Position numbers and translations under genes: made by a program
Origin: Diabrotica undecimpunctata
Taxonomy: Eukaryota > Arthropoda > Insecta > Coleoptera > Chrysomelidae
Direction: 5' to 3'
Assembly: GCF_040954645.1 (NCBI RefSeq)
Contig: NC_092809.1
Span: 76,834,935-76,898,934, forward strand
DNA: 64,000 bases
Part shown: one piece after another, positions 36,561 to 44,206 of the stretch
How the letters are laid out: each line of letters starts with the position of its first letter
How positions within the stretch are numbered: position 1 is the first letter of the stretch
The notes under the pieces: generated by a model
What the model saw: only the letters and a program-made list of their open reading frames with translations
The model's database searches: none
Told to the model about the DNA's origin: nothing

Positions 36561-37070
36561 TTCATTGCAAGTTTATTAAAAAAATATTACCCAACGTTAC
36601 CTTCTTCACTGCGCCACTAGAGATGTACCACGAAACAAATAATATAATAAATCATTTGCTTACAAGAAATAATCATAAATCTGACAACAGCGACGAATTT
36701 CGAACCTCCCACACGCATTCCATGCTTTTATTGGTTCTCCTAAGGCGAGATATTCATTTTTGATTGCATTGTTGAGTCATCTTAGGGTGCACATTGAATA
36801 TCTGTTGGAACATCTCGAGAAATTTACTGTTTAGTGCCGCTAGTGCAGTGAAGTTGCTGCAATTCGCATTTATGGCATTAAGAACCGAACAAGAAAAATC
36901 AAGATAGTACTTGTTGGTTATTAAGTATTGCTTATACCGTGTTCAGGCTTAAAAAGTTTCGTAAACAAGTCAGGATGTTTTAATGAAAAATAACAACAGT
37001 AGTCAGAAGAAAATAACAAAAGTAATAAACATTTAAGTTTTTTTGTTGCATCTAAAGCTTAATATTAAAA
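36561..37070. other. No gene recognised
   Basis: AT-rich flank of the LINE insertion; no motif noted. Confidence 0.4.
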
Positions 37071-38891
37071 ATGTCTATTTTCTGTAAGAAAGTGATAAGG
37101 CAAAATAAAAGAAGATGGGTAGACAAAAAAACGCAGGAAATAGAGCAGGAAAGAACAAACAGAAATACGAAAAGTTTTTACAAAAAAATTAAAGAACAAA
37201 ACAAAAAATACAAGGGCAAAACAAACGGAATAAAAAATAGAGAGGGAATAGTGATAATAGAGGACCAAGAATACAAACAAGTATGGAGAGATTACTACAG
37301 AGAGCTCTTGACGGAGGAAACAACAGAAGAAGAAATGCATAACGAGGAGGAAACGGTGCACGAAGAAGAAGCAGATGAAGTAGATATCGAAATTTCAAAA
37401 GAACCAACATTAGAGGAATTGGATGAAGTAATACAGAGAAGCAAAAATGGAAAAGCCCCTGGTAAAGATGGCATTAATATGGAACTAATAAAATACGGGG
37501 GAAGGGAACTAAGAGGAAAAATACTGGGACTATTGAAAAATATATGGAAAGAAGAGAAAATGCCAGGGGACTGGGAGGTGGGGCAGATCATAACAGTACA
37601 TAAAAAGGGAGACCAACAAATCTGTGAAAATTATAGAGGAATAACTTTACTAAATACAACATATAAAATATTGACATCAATAATAAAAAAGAGGTTATCA
37701 AAAATCATAAAGAAGACAGTAGGACAGTACCAATGTGGATTCACAGAAGGAAGATCTACAATAGATGCAATACACACAATAAAACAAATAATGGAAAAAG
37801 CAAACGAGTATAAATTAGAATTGGAAATGTTATTCATAGACTTCAAACAGGCATTTGATTCAATTAAAAGGAACGGATTAATGATAGCACTTAAAAAATT
37901 AAAAATTCCACATAAACTCAGAAAATTAATAGAAATGACAATGAGAACTACAAAAATAAGCATAAAGACACAAAGAGGAGAGACAGAGGAATTCATTATA
38001 AATAAAGGGATGAAACAAGGAGATGCCTTATCAACAACGCTATTTAATCTAGCATTAGAATATGTACTACGAAATATAAATAAAGGAAATCTCAGAACAA
38101 GAGGTGGTCAAATAATTGCATATGCAGACGATATTGCTATTATTGCAAAGAACAGAAAAATAATGAAAGAAATGCTAGAAGAAATAAGAGAGAAAGGGGA
38201 GGTAATGGGGCTAAGATTAAATCAAGAAAAGACAAAAATATTAAGATTAGGGAAAAAACCAATGAAAGAAAAAATCAAAATAGGTAGTTCTGAGTTTGAA
38301 GAAGTAGAATACTTCAAATACCTAGGAGTTACAATAAGTAAATCCGGAGAAAGGATATCCGAAATAAAAGAAAAAATATTAGCAACGAATAAAGCTTATT
38401 TTGCAAACAAAACATTACTTAAAAGCAAAACACTGACTAAAAAAAGTAAGATGAGCATTTATAACACCATAATTAGGCCAATATTATTATATGCAGGAGA
38501 AACAATGACGATGGTTAAAAAAGATGAAGAAGACTTAAGAATAGCAGAGAGAAAGATTATGAGAACCACACTAGGACCAATCAGAACAGAGCAAAATGAA
38601 TATAGAAGCAGAACAAATGCAGAAATTAAGGAAGAACTTAAGGAAGACATCGTAACTAAAATAAAGCAATGCAGAGTTAGATGGTTAGGTCACATTTGGC
38701 GAGCAGGCGATGAGGCAGTAACATACGCAATAATAGAATGGAATCCAGGAGGAAAAAAGAGAAGGGGAAGACCGAGATCAAAGTGGCTGCAAGAAGTTGA
38801 AGAAGACCTCCAAAGGGCAGGAGTCAGAGAATGGAGAGGAAGAACTAGAGACAGGAAAAAATGGAGAGATATTGTCAAGAAGATAAGATAA
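37071..38891 (+). CDS. LINE reverse transcriptase, 606 codons, 5'-truncated but fully open
   Basis: Reverse transcriptase of a non-LTR retrotransposon (RTE-like or related clade) that would copy its own RNA at a nicked target. The frame is uninterrupted. It starts just before CKKVIRQNKRRWVDKK, which in complete relatives follows the apurinic endonuclease, so the endonuclease is missing by 5' truncation. Order: acidic linker (residues ~80-110), KNGKAPGKDGINMELI, NYRGITLLNTTYKIL, LFIDFKQAFDSI (Asp257, motif A), KGMKQGDALSTTLFNLALEY (motif B), IIAYADDIAIIAKN (Asp353, Asp354), EYFKYLGVTISKSG, and the C-terminal VRWLGHIWRAGDEAVTYAII, RGRPRSKWLQEVEED. The ATG at 37,071 may be fortuitous. The intact frame indicates a recent insertion. 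Confidence 0.9.
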   Translation: MSIFCKKVIRQNKRRWVDKKTQEIEQERTNRNTKSFYKKIKEQNKKYKGKTNGIKNREGIVIIEDQEYKQVWRDYYRELLTEETTEEEMHNEEETVHEEEADEVDIEISKEPTLEELDEVIQRSKNGKAPGKDGINMELIKYGGRELRGKILGLLKNIWKEEKMPGDWEVGQIITVHKKGDQQICENYRGITLLNTTYKILTSIIKKRLSKIIKKTVGQYQCGFTEGRSTIDAIHTIKQIMEKANEYKLELEMLFIDFKQAFDSIKRNGLMIALKKLKIPHKLRKLIEMTMRTTKISIKTQRGETEEFIINKGMKQGDALSTTLFNLALEYVLRNINKGNLRTRGGQIIAYADDIAIIAKNRKIMKEMLEEIREKGEVMGLRLNQEKTKILRLGKKPMKEKIKIGSSEFEEVEYFKYLGVTISKSGERISEIKEKILATNKAYFANKTLLKSKTLTKKSKMSIYNTIIRPILLYAGETMTMVKKDEEDLRIAERKIMRTTLGPIRTEQNEYRSRTNAEIKEELKEDIVTKIKQCRVRWLGHIWRAGDEAVTYAIIEWNPGGKKRRGRPRSKWLQEVEEDLQRAGVREWRGRTRDRKKWRDIVKKIR

Positions 38892-39759: not shown

Positions 39760-40975
<1,216 letters not shown>

Positions 40976-40990
40976 CTGCTCCCCTCTTAG
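40976..40990 (-). other. Polypurine tract of the gypsy element
   Basis: Minus strand reads AAGAGGGGAGCAG immediately before the 3' LTR start TGTAACG. This is the plus-strand primer position, and it overlaps the last codons of the macrodomain-CCCH frame, proving that frame lies inside the element. Confidence 0.8.
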
Positions 40991-41463
40991 ATCTGAGCGT
41001 CCCGATCAGTAACTCCAAATGTAGGCCCAGGATGGCGGAATCTACAGAGCTCTCCAGCTCTACATGAACCCCTCAAGAAGAAATAACAGTCTACAGACTT
41101 TGAAGGACACGATCTCTTCGGGTTAATACAATACACAGTAATTCTTACGCCGGTTTCTCGGAAGATCACTTCAAGCATGCTTCTGACAATCTTCCAATTC
41201 AGATTTTCTAGGGCATGGCCTATCTTGGGTAAGGCCAAATTCTTGATGTCATAATTGCACACGATTTTCTTCAAATTAGTTAGAGCACGCCATATATCCT
41301 CGTAGCTTGCCCTGTCTGTATACGACTTCCTGGTCGCCATATACAGCAAAGATCGAGGACCCTCTTCTAATCTCAGTACTCTTTCAACTTTAGGCTGCTG
41401 GTTTTTTAACTCGTCCAAACGACCGAACTTCCTATAGAATACAGATGAGATTCCTTTAGTCAT
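40987..41463 (-). CDS. TARG1/OARD1-like macrodomain plus CCCH zinc finger, in gypsy element
   Basis: A 158-codon open frame from the M at 41,463; the same frame stays open upstream through RPPEIKHCVAQAFE, so the ORF was longer. Residues 1-112 match the central and C-terminal parts of the TARG1/OARD1 macrodomain (hydrolase that removes ADP-ribose from acidic residues): KGISSVFYRKFGRLDELKNQ, LLYMATRKSY, ASYEDIWRAL, LALPKIGHALENLNWKIV (77-93) and GVRITVY (105-111). Residues 126-144 form a CCCH finger, C-x7-C-x5-C-x3-H (C126, C134, C140, H144), typical of RNA binding. The TARG1 catalytic Lys84 and Asp125 (from memory) align to Arg31 and Glu86. Role in the element is inference: ADP-ribose binding, RNA packaging or countering host PARP defence. 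Confidence 0.85.
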   Translation of the reverse strand: MTKGISSVFYRKFGRLDELKNQQPKVERVLRLEEGPRSLLYMATRKSYTDRASYEDIWRALTNLKKIVCNYDIKNLALPKIGHALENLNWKIVRSMLEVIFRETGVRITVYCINPKRSCPSKSVDCYFFLRGSCRAGELCRFRHPGPTFGVTDRDAQI

Positions 41464-41499
41464 CTCAAAAGCTTGGGCAACACAGTGTTTAATTTCAGG

Positions 41500-42480
41500 C
41501 GGTCGACATAATATTCGCTTGCAATATGTTCTTCGGAAGGTCTGCAGCCAAACTCTAGGTCGCAGGGCAAACGAACTTCACGACCTAACATCAGGCAGGC
41601 TGCAGTCTAGCCTGCAGTTTCATTCACGGCCGAGCGGTAGGCCATTAGGAATAAATGAATGTGCTGGCCCCAATCTCTTTTGATGTTCTGGTACAACTTT
41701 GGACAGGTGTTTACCCATCGTTCGGTTCATCCTCTCGACCATTCCATCTGATTGACGATGCAGGTGTGTTGTTCTGGTCTTATTGACACCAATCAATTTA
41801 CAAACGTTTTGGAAAAGGGTTGACTCGAAGTTTCGCCCTTGGTCGGAGTGGATCTCCAAAGGAACACCAAATCGGCTGAAGAATTATTTAACAAGTACCT
41901 CTGCAACGGTAGCAGCTTCTTTATTTGGTATTGCGTAGGCCTCAGTCCATTTCGTAAAATAATTCATAGCTACCAGGATATATTTATTTCCATCATTCGT
42001 CTCTGGAAGTGGACCTGCAATGTCGATTGCTACTCTTTCCATAGGACATTGTACTGTTTCATGCGTGCCCTCTTTTTACCAACTGGACCATTACTGGTTG
42101 CACACAGTTCACATTTCCGGCACCATCTTCTTACATCATCTTTACAGTTCACCCAATAGAACCGTTCTCGAACCTTTAGCAGAGCCTTCGTAATACTAAA
42201 GTGTCCACCTGATGCACCGTCATGCAACTGACGAAATAGTTCTGACACTTTACTTTTAGGTACAATCAACTGAAGCTTAGTTTCTGTACCATCATCGTTC
42301 TCAAAGGTTCTATACAGAAGATCATCTTTCAGCACTAGGCAATTTCATTGGCTCCAGTAACACTTGACTTCTGGACTACATACACTAATGTCTTGCCAAG
42401 AAGGTCTTTCACTTCGACGCATCCGATCTAATACTCTTTTTATACATTTTATACATGGATCATCTGCTTAAGCGTCTTGT
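41500..42480 (-). pseudogene. Ty3/gypsy integrase
   Basis: Inserts the retroelement cDNA. Minus strand from 42,480: RPSWQDISVCSPEVKCYWSQ leader, LKDDLLYRTFENDDG, HHCC zinc domain (LHDGASGGHFSITKALLKVR, WCRKCELCA), then the core with first Asp in VAIDIAGPLPETNDGNKYIL, NYFTKWTEAYAIPNKEAATV, a stop near 41,887, second Asp in EIHSDQGRNFES and the Glu in RQSDGMVERMNRTMGKHL, then LGREVRLPCDLEFGCRPSEE and a break after YYVDRLK (~41,500). All three DDE acids are visible. A stop near 42,350 (YWSQ-stop) and the frame change before 41,500 make it defective. The C-terminal module is missing, replaced by the macrodomain frame. Confidence 0.85.
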
Positions 42481-43824
42481 AGCTGTTGAAGCTGCCTTTG
42501 ATCATTAATGACGGTGGTTCGTCTCACGGGGCAAAGTCGTTCTTCTAATTCAAAACAATGACTACGGTTTGCACTGTATGGCCGTATTGACTGAGCCTCA
42601 GCATTTGAATGACTTTTTCCAGCCCAGTGTTCGATCTGTTCTAGCTTTCTGACTGTTGTATTATTTTCATGCAATTTACGACGAATGTGACCTACGTCGT
42701 TACCATTCCAACATCTGGGTTCACATCTCTTCGGCATCATGTTACGAACTACTTTCCGTACGATTTCCTCCAGATGTTTATCGTTTTGTACGTCGCTCTC
42801 TTCAGAGATTCGTACTCGATAGCTCCGTGAAGCTCGACTAGCTGTCTCGTGTCCCAAGGCAATAGCGAGCTCTTGATCTAAAACTTTCGGTCTTACTAGT
42901 CGTAAAGCTTTCTGTAGTTCACTGTCTCTTAACCCATTGACGAAGGCATCTACAGCAATTTCTTCCAAAATGTTGTCAAATGTCAAATGCTTCAAATTCT
43001 TGCAAACTCTCACTTGCTCGTTGGATTCTACTTCTTATTTGAACTTTGTAGACTTGTTGTAGATATGCATCTCCGTAACGTTTATCTAGTCGAGTGAACA
43101 AGCTCTGGTAACATTTTTCTTGACCCTTAGGAATCGATCTTAGGATATCCGCAGCATCACCTCGTAAAGCAGCAGTCAAGGAAACAGCTTTTTCTTGTTC
43201 TGTCCAATGATTGGCTGTCGCAATAGCTTCAAATTGTCTAAGGTATATGGACAGAGGACTTTCCATCAAATGGTGGCAATTTGAATCTCGTATGTGTCGT
43301 TTCGTCTCTAGGTGATTCTTCTTTTACTACCGGATCTAAGGCTACTGTATTAACTGGTGGTAGCACTTTTGTATTGGTTATCATGCTCTCTAACTGTTTG
43401 ATCTTGTCTTCTACTTTATCAAATGTTTTAGAAATTTCTTCAAATTTCTCATTGTTCTGAATACATATTTCTTTAATTATTTGTGAAGTATCGTCGTTTT
43501 GTCTAGCTAGTTATTTAATAATTTGAGACGTTTCATCGAATCTTTTGGAAACGTTCTCGAATTTATCATCATTTTTTTAGAAGTTTCTTCAATCATTTGC
43601 GAGACGTTTTCAAATTGCTTATCATTTTTTCTGGGACTCTCTTCGATCTTCATTAAAACTGCTTCTTCTGCTAATTGATAATGAAATGTCTCTGGGTCAT
43701 CTCCATTCTTGTTAAGAAATTTCTTTAGTCGTTCTTGGAGGATCTTCTTAAATCCGCTGCAGTCTTCATCGCATTCTTCTAGTTGCTCACGCAACTGTTT
43801 TACTGAAAGTTGTACTAGTAGCAT
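42468..43824 (-). pseudogene. Ty3/gypsy gag, fused to RNase H tail by deletion
   Basis: Capsid-type polyprotein in three frame-shifted pieces: 43,824-43,507 (N-terminal KQLREQLEECDEDCSGFKKI, SAP-like), 43,269-42,976 (retrotransposon gag domain: IYLRQFEAIATANHWTEQEK, ALRGDAADILRSIPK, RLDKRYGDAYLQQVYKVQIR) and 43,013-42,468 (VDAFVNGLRDSELQKALRL, then CWNGNDVGHIRRKL at residues 101-114, a zinc knuckle that lost two cysteines). After residue ~130 the same frame jumps to KSHSNAEAQSIRPY and ELEERLCPVRRTTV, which is the RNase H end and the RNase H-integrase linker (HSNADALSRRP type). So ~2 kb of protease, RT and RNase H was deleted in frame. Confidence 0.85.
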
Positions 43825-43958: not shown

Positions 43959-44127
43959 TGTTTGTAAACACAACGAGCGGTTCGAATTTATATAAATATA
44001 TTTATTTATCAGTTTACAGTTCGGTACTCTCTTATCAACTAAACTCACTCATAACATCGTTACATTTTGAGTTTTCTAGATGTATCTTTCTAAGAATTAT
44101 GACGTATCGAAGATGGGATATTTCGTT

Positions 44128-44130
<3 letters not shown>
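43959..44130 (-). repeat. 5' LTR of the gypsy element, 172 bp
   Basis: Minus sense from TGTAACGAAATATCCCATCTT to TTTACAAACA. Nearly identical to the 3' LTR where aligned, but lacks ~95 bp between CGTTACA and TTGAGTTTTCTAGA. Just inside it GTTGGTGTTCGGTGTGAG is the primer-binding-site position. Confidence 0.85.

Positions 44131-44200
<70 letters not shown>
44131..44200. repeat. (TA)n microsatellite, right part of the gypsy target array
   Basis: Continuation of the array at 40,542-40,710 after the gypsy insertion. Confidence 0.98.

Positions 44201-44202
<2 letters not shown>

Positions 44203-44206
<4 letters not shown>

Follow-up and report, generated by a model that had tools for sequence, protein, structure and literature searches.

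The genome of Diabrotica undecimpunctata carries an abundant, recently mobile family of Ty3/gypsy retrotransposons in which pol ends with an integrase, followed by a TARG1/OARD1-type macrodomain and then by a CCCH zinc finger. One member lies in "the window", the whole 64,000-nucleotide stretch of DNA that was analysed, but deletions have reduced this copy to a remnant in which a degenerate 3' end of the element survives. The presence of a 3.4 kb LTR element in the window was confirmed, with LTRs placed from sequence ends and direct repeat pairs. As the original prediction stated, an open minus-strand frame ends in the polypurine tract of this element; the frame runs 41577-40987, and its stop codon, TAA at 40989-40987, overlaps the tract at 40988-40976. 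The features of the window copy, described in part by comparison with a better preserved copy, L022, are the following.

43959-44130, minus strand: 5' LTR, from direct repeats D2 and D3 with ends read from the sequence; shorter than the 3' LTR
42631-43824, minus strand: gag remnant with broken frame, N-terminal SAP and Retrotrans_gag (blastn against L022)
42631-42637, minus strand: deletion junction, L022 2306-4403 absent (blastn blocks and L022 domain places)
41489-42637, minus strand: pol remnant with broken frame, comprising the RNase H/integrase connector, H2C2 zinc-binding domain and integrase core
41487-41489, minus strand: deletion junction, L022 5549-6006 absent (blastn against L022)
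40987-41577, minus strand: open frame of 196 codons, stop included, with the macrodomain remnant and the finger
41128-41484, minus strand: TARG1/OARD1-type macrodomain, C-terminal ~120 of 141 residues (phmmer and alignments)
41035-41091, minus strand: CCCH zinc finger, C-x7-C-x5-C-x3-H (PF00642, 21.6 bits, cutoff 20.5)
40976-40988, minus strand: polypurine tract AAGAGGGGAGCAG, read from the sequence, overlapping the stop codon
40711-40975, minus strand: 3' LTR, from repeats and sequence

Relative to L022, the window copy has two deletions. The first removed about 2.1 kb (L022 2306-4403), encoding protease, RT and RNase H; the second removed about 458 nt (L022 5549-6006) and took away the end of integrase together with the linker and the opening ~20 residues of the macrodomain, among them the strand of TARG1 Asp20. 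The pol remnant between the junctions is 93% identical to L022 4403-5548 (blastn) and matches Integrase_H2C2 at 5.8e-19, with rve fragments below the Pfam cutoff. In the gag remnant, SAP scored above the Pfam cutoff (2.5e-07) and Retrotrans_gag below it (2.3e-04). The first ~31 residues of the 196-codon frame are integrase DNA read out of frame. Runs of (TA)n enclose the element at 40544-40710 and 44131-44205; ATAT repeats are also found at both ends of copies L024 and L040, in line with the NTAY target preference described below. Near the gypsy copy, a 611-codon open frame on the plus strand (37056-38891) with a strong RVT_1 match (1.1e-43) is probably a non-LTR element.

Residues 15-150 of the window frame match OARD1/TARG1 (4j5q) in a phmmer search against PDB with an E value of 1.2e-21, and among the solved macrodomains it is TARG1 that the domain most resembles in both sequence and fold. 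A structure search likewise matched the fold of the module to TARG1. The profile check gave a divided result: the finger, which has exactly the spacing that had been predicted, exceeded the cutoff for zf-CCCH, but the Pfam Macro model scored 14.3 bits against a cutoff of 22. It is therefore the sequence match and the fold that support the TARG1 assignment, not the general Macro model of Pfam.

The module is widespread in the same genome. A first look at the 1.74 Gb assembly yielded 5719 candidates, and all 150 that were scored match the module, with identities of 85-92% once the copy in the window is set aside, indicating that the macrodomain-finger frame of the window is not a product of chance. 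We read the structure of 20 loci picked by listed frame length. In six (L021-L024, L032, L033) a gag frame overlaps a pol frame of 1414 codons, and in four (L025-L028) gag and pol form a single frame of 1823-1857 codons. The two types of gag/pol border, overlapping frames of 431 and 1414 codons as in L022 and one frame of about 1857 codons as in L025, may reflect two coexisting modes of expression. Pfam matches above cutoff on pieces of the L022 gag were SAP, Retrotrans_gag and CCHC; those in pol were, in order, aspartic protease, RT, RNase H, H2C2, rve, Integrase_p58_C and zf-CCCH, with Macro again below the cutoff of the general model. Fourteen of the 20 loci have LTR pairs with TG..CA ends, and all 14 copies have 4-bp target duplications that fit NTAY. 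This pol order and the LTR pairs with their target duplications bear out the assignment to gypsy. The two LTRs are identical in nine of the 14, suggesting that the family moved recently. A polypurine tract of the window kind precedes the 3' LTR in all 14, and in the family the module sits directly before the tract and the 3' LTR. In L022 the gap between the end of pol (6504) and the start of the 3' LTR (6519) is too short for an env ORF. Differences in genome size in Diabrotica are credited mostly to MITEs and gypsy-like elements in a published survey (PMC8982398).

Relatives with the module were also found in proteins of other insects, in which integrase and macrodomain are again joined. A search with an integrase-module piece returned eight proteins (P0010-P0017), one from D. 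virgifera and the others with 40-50% identity; P0017 is without the finger. Of 1826 proteins from a profile search, the best 120 were looked at. The matches listed include a Brassicogethes aeneus protein with the macrodomain and most of the finger (Ser in place of the first Cys), a Macrosteles quadrilineatus protein with no finger, and entries labelled Aromia moschata, Callosobruchus maculatus and Pyrocoelia pectoralis. Relatives that keep the module have 33-55% identity across it. The full CCCH motif is absent from 12 of 22 retroelement protein rows, several of which are fragments; the leafhopper-type proteins seem genuinely to be without the finger. Integrase and macrodomain identities are correlated among eight elements (Mantel r 0.89, 0/5000), more weakly when the second Diabrotica row is removed (r 0.66, 8/5040). 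The module is a C-terminal extension of integrase common to several insect lineages.

To place the module we used an unrooted tree of 42 macrodomains, from which a duplicate row (B_L097), the fragments P0003, P0005 and P0008, and the window row were omitted; it includes 11 cellular animal OARD1 rows, and its bacterial and phage rows are eight IMG/VR loci and L099. Twenty insect-type retroelement rows group at 92/94, and these rows lie together with the beetle host gene L101, the sole insect cellular OARD1-like gene in the tree, on one side of a branch with support of 99/97. On this placement the module appears to have been captured from an insect OARD1-like host gene. This supports the idea that the element captured a host gene for ADP-ribose handling, but the capture is not private to Diabrotica, being shared by several insect lineages. 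L101 (1027-3309, minus strand) is a frame of 760 codons comprising a long N-terminal region and a macrodomain that has Lys84 and Asp125, and we infer that it is the beetle's own expressed OARD1-like gene. At E 0.1 it had no Pfam match, Macro included. A weak second macro-like stretch is present at its residues 651-747 (profile score 8.6).

A TARG1-type macrodomain is also found at a different place in pol. In L100 (231-3272), a gypsy-type pol, the domain lies between protease and RT and keeps Lys84 and Asp125. The one contig of L100, 3,274 bases long, was binned with a Candidatus Poribacteria MAG, in which it is likely to be a contaminant; our guess from the isolate name is that the DNA is from coral or sponge. 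L100 is apparently an independent, second capture of a TARG1-type domain. A single clade of insect retroelement rows and L100 was not rejected (p-AU 0.105), so the case for a second capture comes chiefly from the distance between the RTs and from where in pol the domain lies. The search of GTDB genomes that returned L100 gave three other loci, two from Ruminococcus and one from Anaerocolumna. The window protein found zero relatives in IMG/VR. With the module alignment A3, 56 IMG/VR loci were found, with matches that end by query residue 124, short of the finger; these were taken as phage or bacterial macrodomains of the TARG1/DarG type, which occur on many IMG/VR contigs (L041-L096). A fold search against viral models placed Kadipiro virus VP8 first (34% identity over 178 columns); polyproteins of several thrips-associated viruses were also among the top TARG1-like matches. 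These model-based matches would be in keeping with a conflict over ADP-ribose that extends more widely in insects.

The Diabrotica copies differ from their relatives at the catalytic site. All 67 Diabrotica rows have Arg in place of the TARG1 catalytic Lys84, 65 by alignment and two (L005 and L020), which are out of register there, by motif; five places are doubled in these residue counts (L002/L035, L009/L037, L013/L038, L104/L124 and L105/L125). Catalytic activity can therefore not be taken for granted in the family to which the window copy belongs. Gly123 is replaced by Ala in Diabrotica, and position 125 is Asp in 43 of the 67 rows and Glu in 22, with two out of register; the window copy has Glu. 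The CCCH motif is retained in 64 of the 67. Outside the Diabrotica group Lys84 is present in 16/16 retroelement rows and Asp125 in 16/17, and the pocket residues Asp20, Gly43, Lys84 and Asp125 are kept in most rows.

Selection was measured part by part along the module in the Diabrotica copies. Eleven of the 67 rows were dropped for stops or for sharing fewer than 190 of 217 residues with L022, and another 11 as duplicates at the DNA level, leaving 45 distinct intact sequences. The macrodomain has a dN/dS of 0.15 (0.10-0.20, 60 codon bootstraps), indicating that the domain has been maintained even with Arg84. The values may be biased low, as protein similarity or frame length guided the choice of many of the copies; the linkers and the tail of the same copies provide an internal control: 1.10 (0.51-4.82) for the linker before the macrodomain, 0.58 (0.18-6.28) for the linker after it and 1.94 (1.00-2.94) for the tail. 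Purifying selection on the CCCH finger (0.20, 0.01-2.25) is suggested weakly by these sequences. A smaller set gave 0.13 for the macrodomain versus 0.12 for RT; a value of 0.46 for RH-IN was set aside owing to possible misregister among pairs down to 70% identical, and 0.54 for CCCH-tail was later split into finger and tail.

We consider it an even call that the macrodomain on the integrase tail handles ADP-ribose, as an eraser in most lineages and as a binder in Diabrotica, with the finger holding RNA. Being the integrase tail, the module would be expected to be carried along in the virus-like particle and in the pre-integration complex. In lineages with Lys84 and Asp125 the macrodomain would most likely strip ADP-ribose, added by host transferases, from the nucleic acid ends, bases or proteins of the element. 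In Diabrotica, with Arg84 and Ala123, catalysis has probably been lost or weakened and a role in binding ADP-ribose kept under selection, and the finger probably helps to hold RNA. An eraser is favoured by the conservation of Lys84 and Asp125 in L100 and in lineages other than Diabrotica, and constraint that persists after the loss of Lys84 suggests that binding alone may be worth keeping.

The same constraint on a domain without Lys84, its placement at the integrase C-terminus and the binding of PAR by TARG1 described in PMC5928194 would also suit a reader of ADP-ribose or PAR by which the integration complex is anchored on chromatin that bears ADP-ribose, much as proposed for the chromodomain of chromoviruses, with catalysis incidental. 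We regard this as possible but doubtful: a pure reader has no need of Lys84 and Asp125, which nearly all other retroelement rows and L100 have kept, and the L100 domain is not on integrase. The NTAY duplications reflect a local DNA preference and are uninformative about chromatin tethering. It is unlikely that macrodomain and finger form an RNA- or cDNA-binding tail for packaging or reverse transcription in which ADP-ribose is irrelevant. TARG1 is described as binding RNA independently of its ADP-ribose pocket (PMC5928194) and the finger has the low dN/dS given above, but the pocket is conserved in most rows outside Diabrotica and the finger is apparently absent from the leafhopper-type relatives. 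The degenerate active site in Diabrotica might suggest a captured exon carried along by chance with no role, a very improbable reading given the contrast between the macrodomain and its flanking linker and tail in dN/dS and the retention of the module by such distant relatives. A separate host exon, or an independent insertion beside an ordinary element, could be imagined from the window alone, where a junction cuts the frame off from integrase, but it was ruled out, to near certainty, by the single open frame that joins integrase, macrodomain and finger in better preserved copies and in the proteins of relatives.

A module that handles ADP-ribose at the end of integrase has partial parallels elsewhere. 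RNA virus macrodomains have been linked to escape from host ADP-ribosylation, and those of alphavirus nsP3, rubella p150 and insect viruses share the macrodomain fold. Chromoviruses are Ty3/gypsy elements whose integrase ends in a chromodomain, proposed to anchor them on heterochromatin through its marks; their accessory domain occupies the same place, but here it is a macrodomain with a CCCH finger, and no chromodomain was among the Pfam matches of L022:5263-6504 at E 0.1. L022 differs from Errantivirus-like gypsy elements in having no env ORF after pol. Compared with the TARG1/OARD1 (C6orf130) hydrolase, the element's domain is fused to a gypsy integrase and a CCCH finger, and in Diabrotica it has the Lys84 to Arg and Gly123 to Ala changes. 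The DarG antitoxin macrodomain is bacterial and one half of a toxin-antitoxin pair, and the bacterial and phage rows group apart in the tree. Among the papers listed by searches of the open literature for macrodomains or other accessory domains of LTR elements, or for OARD1 together with retrotransposons, none was on a macrodomain in a gypsy element. The nearest precedent is provided by the fish epsilon-like ERVs, retroelements with macro domains in additional ORFs (PMC4977317, citing Basta et al. 2009). Those are described as additional ORFs in vertebrate elements, and the passages of PMC4977317 that describe them mention neither a fusion to a gypsy integrase nor a CCCH finger.

A TARG1-type domain that is carried on integrase, under selection and apparently acquired more than once by gypsy elements suggests that conflict over ADP-ribosylation may reach retrotransposons. 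TARG1 is able to act on ADP-ribosylated DNA, so the element could expose a defence in insects based on ADP-ribosylation of nucleic acid. The lineages with Lys84 and the Diabrotica family with Arg84 offer a natural contrast that separates eraser from reader. There is also a consequence for annotation, since three Diabrotica proteins that belong to the element clade (P0002-P0004) bear the name 'ADP-ribose glycohydrolase OARD1-like' in public records. More tentatively, distant Ty3/gypsy lineages may have captured TARG1-type domains at least twice, at different places in pol, with the captured enzyme turned in Diabrotica into a non-catalytic reader of ADP-ribose on integrase. If the domain was captured twice in this way, that would point to ADP-ribosylation of the nucleic acid or particle proteins of retroelements as a genuine obstacle to retrotransposition in invertebrates.
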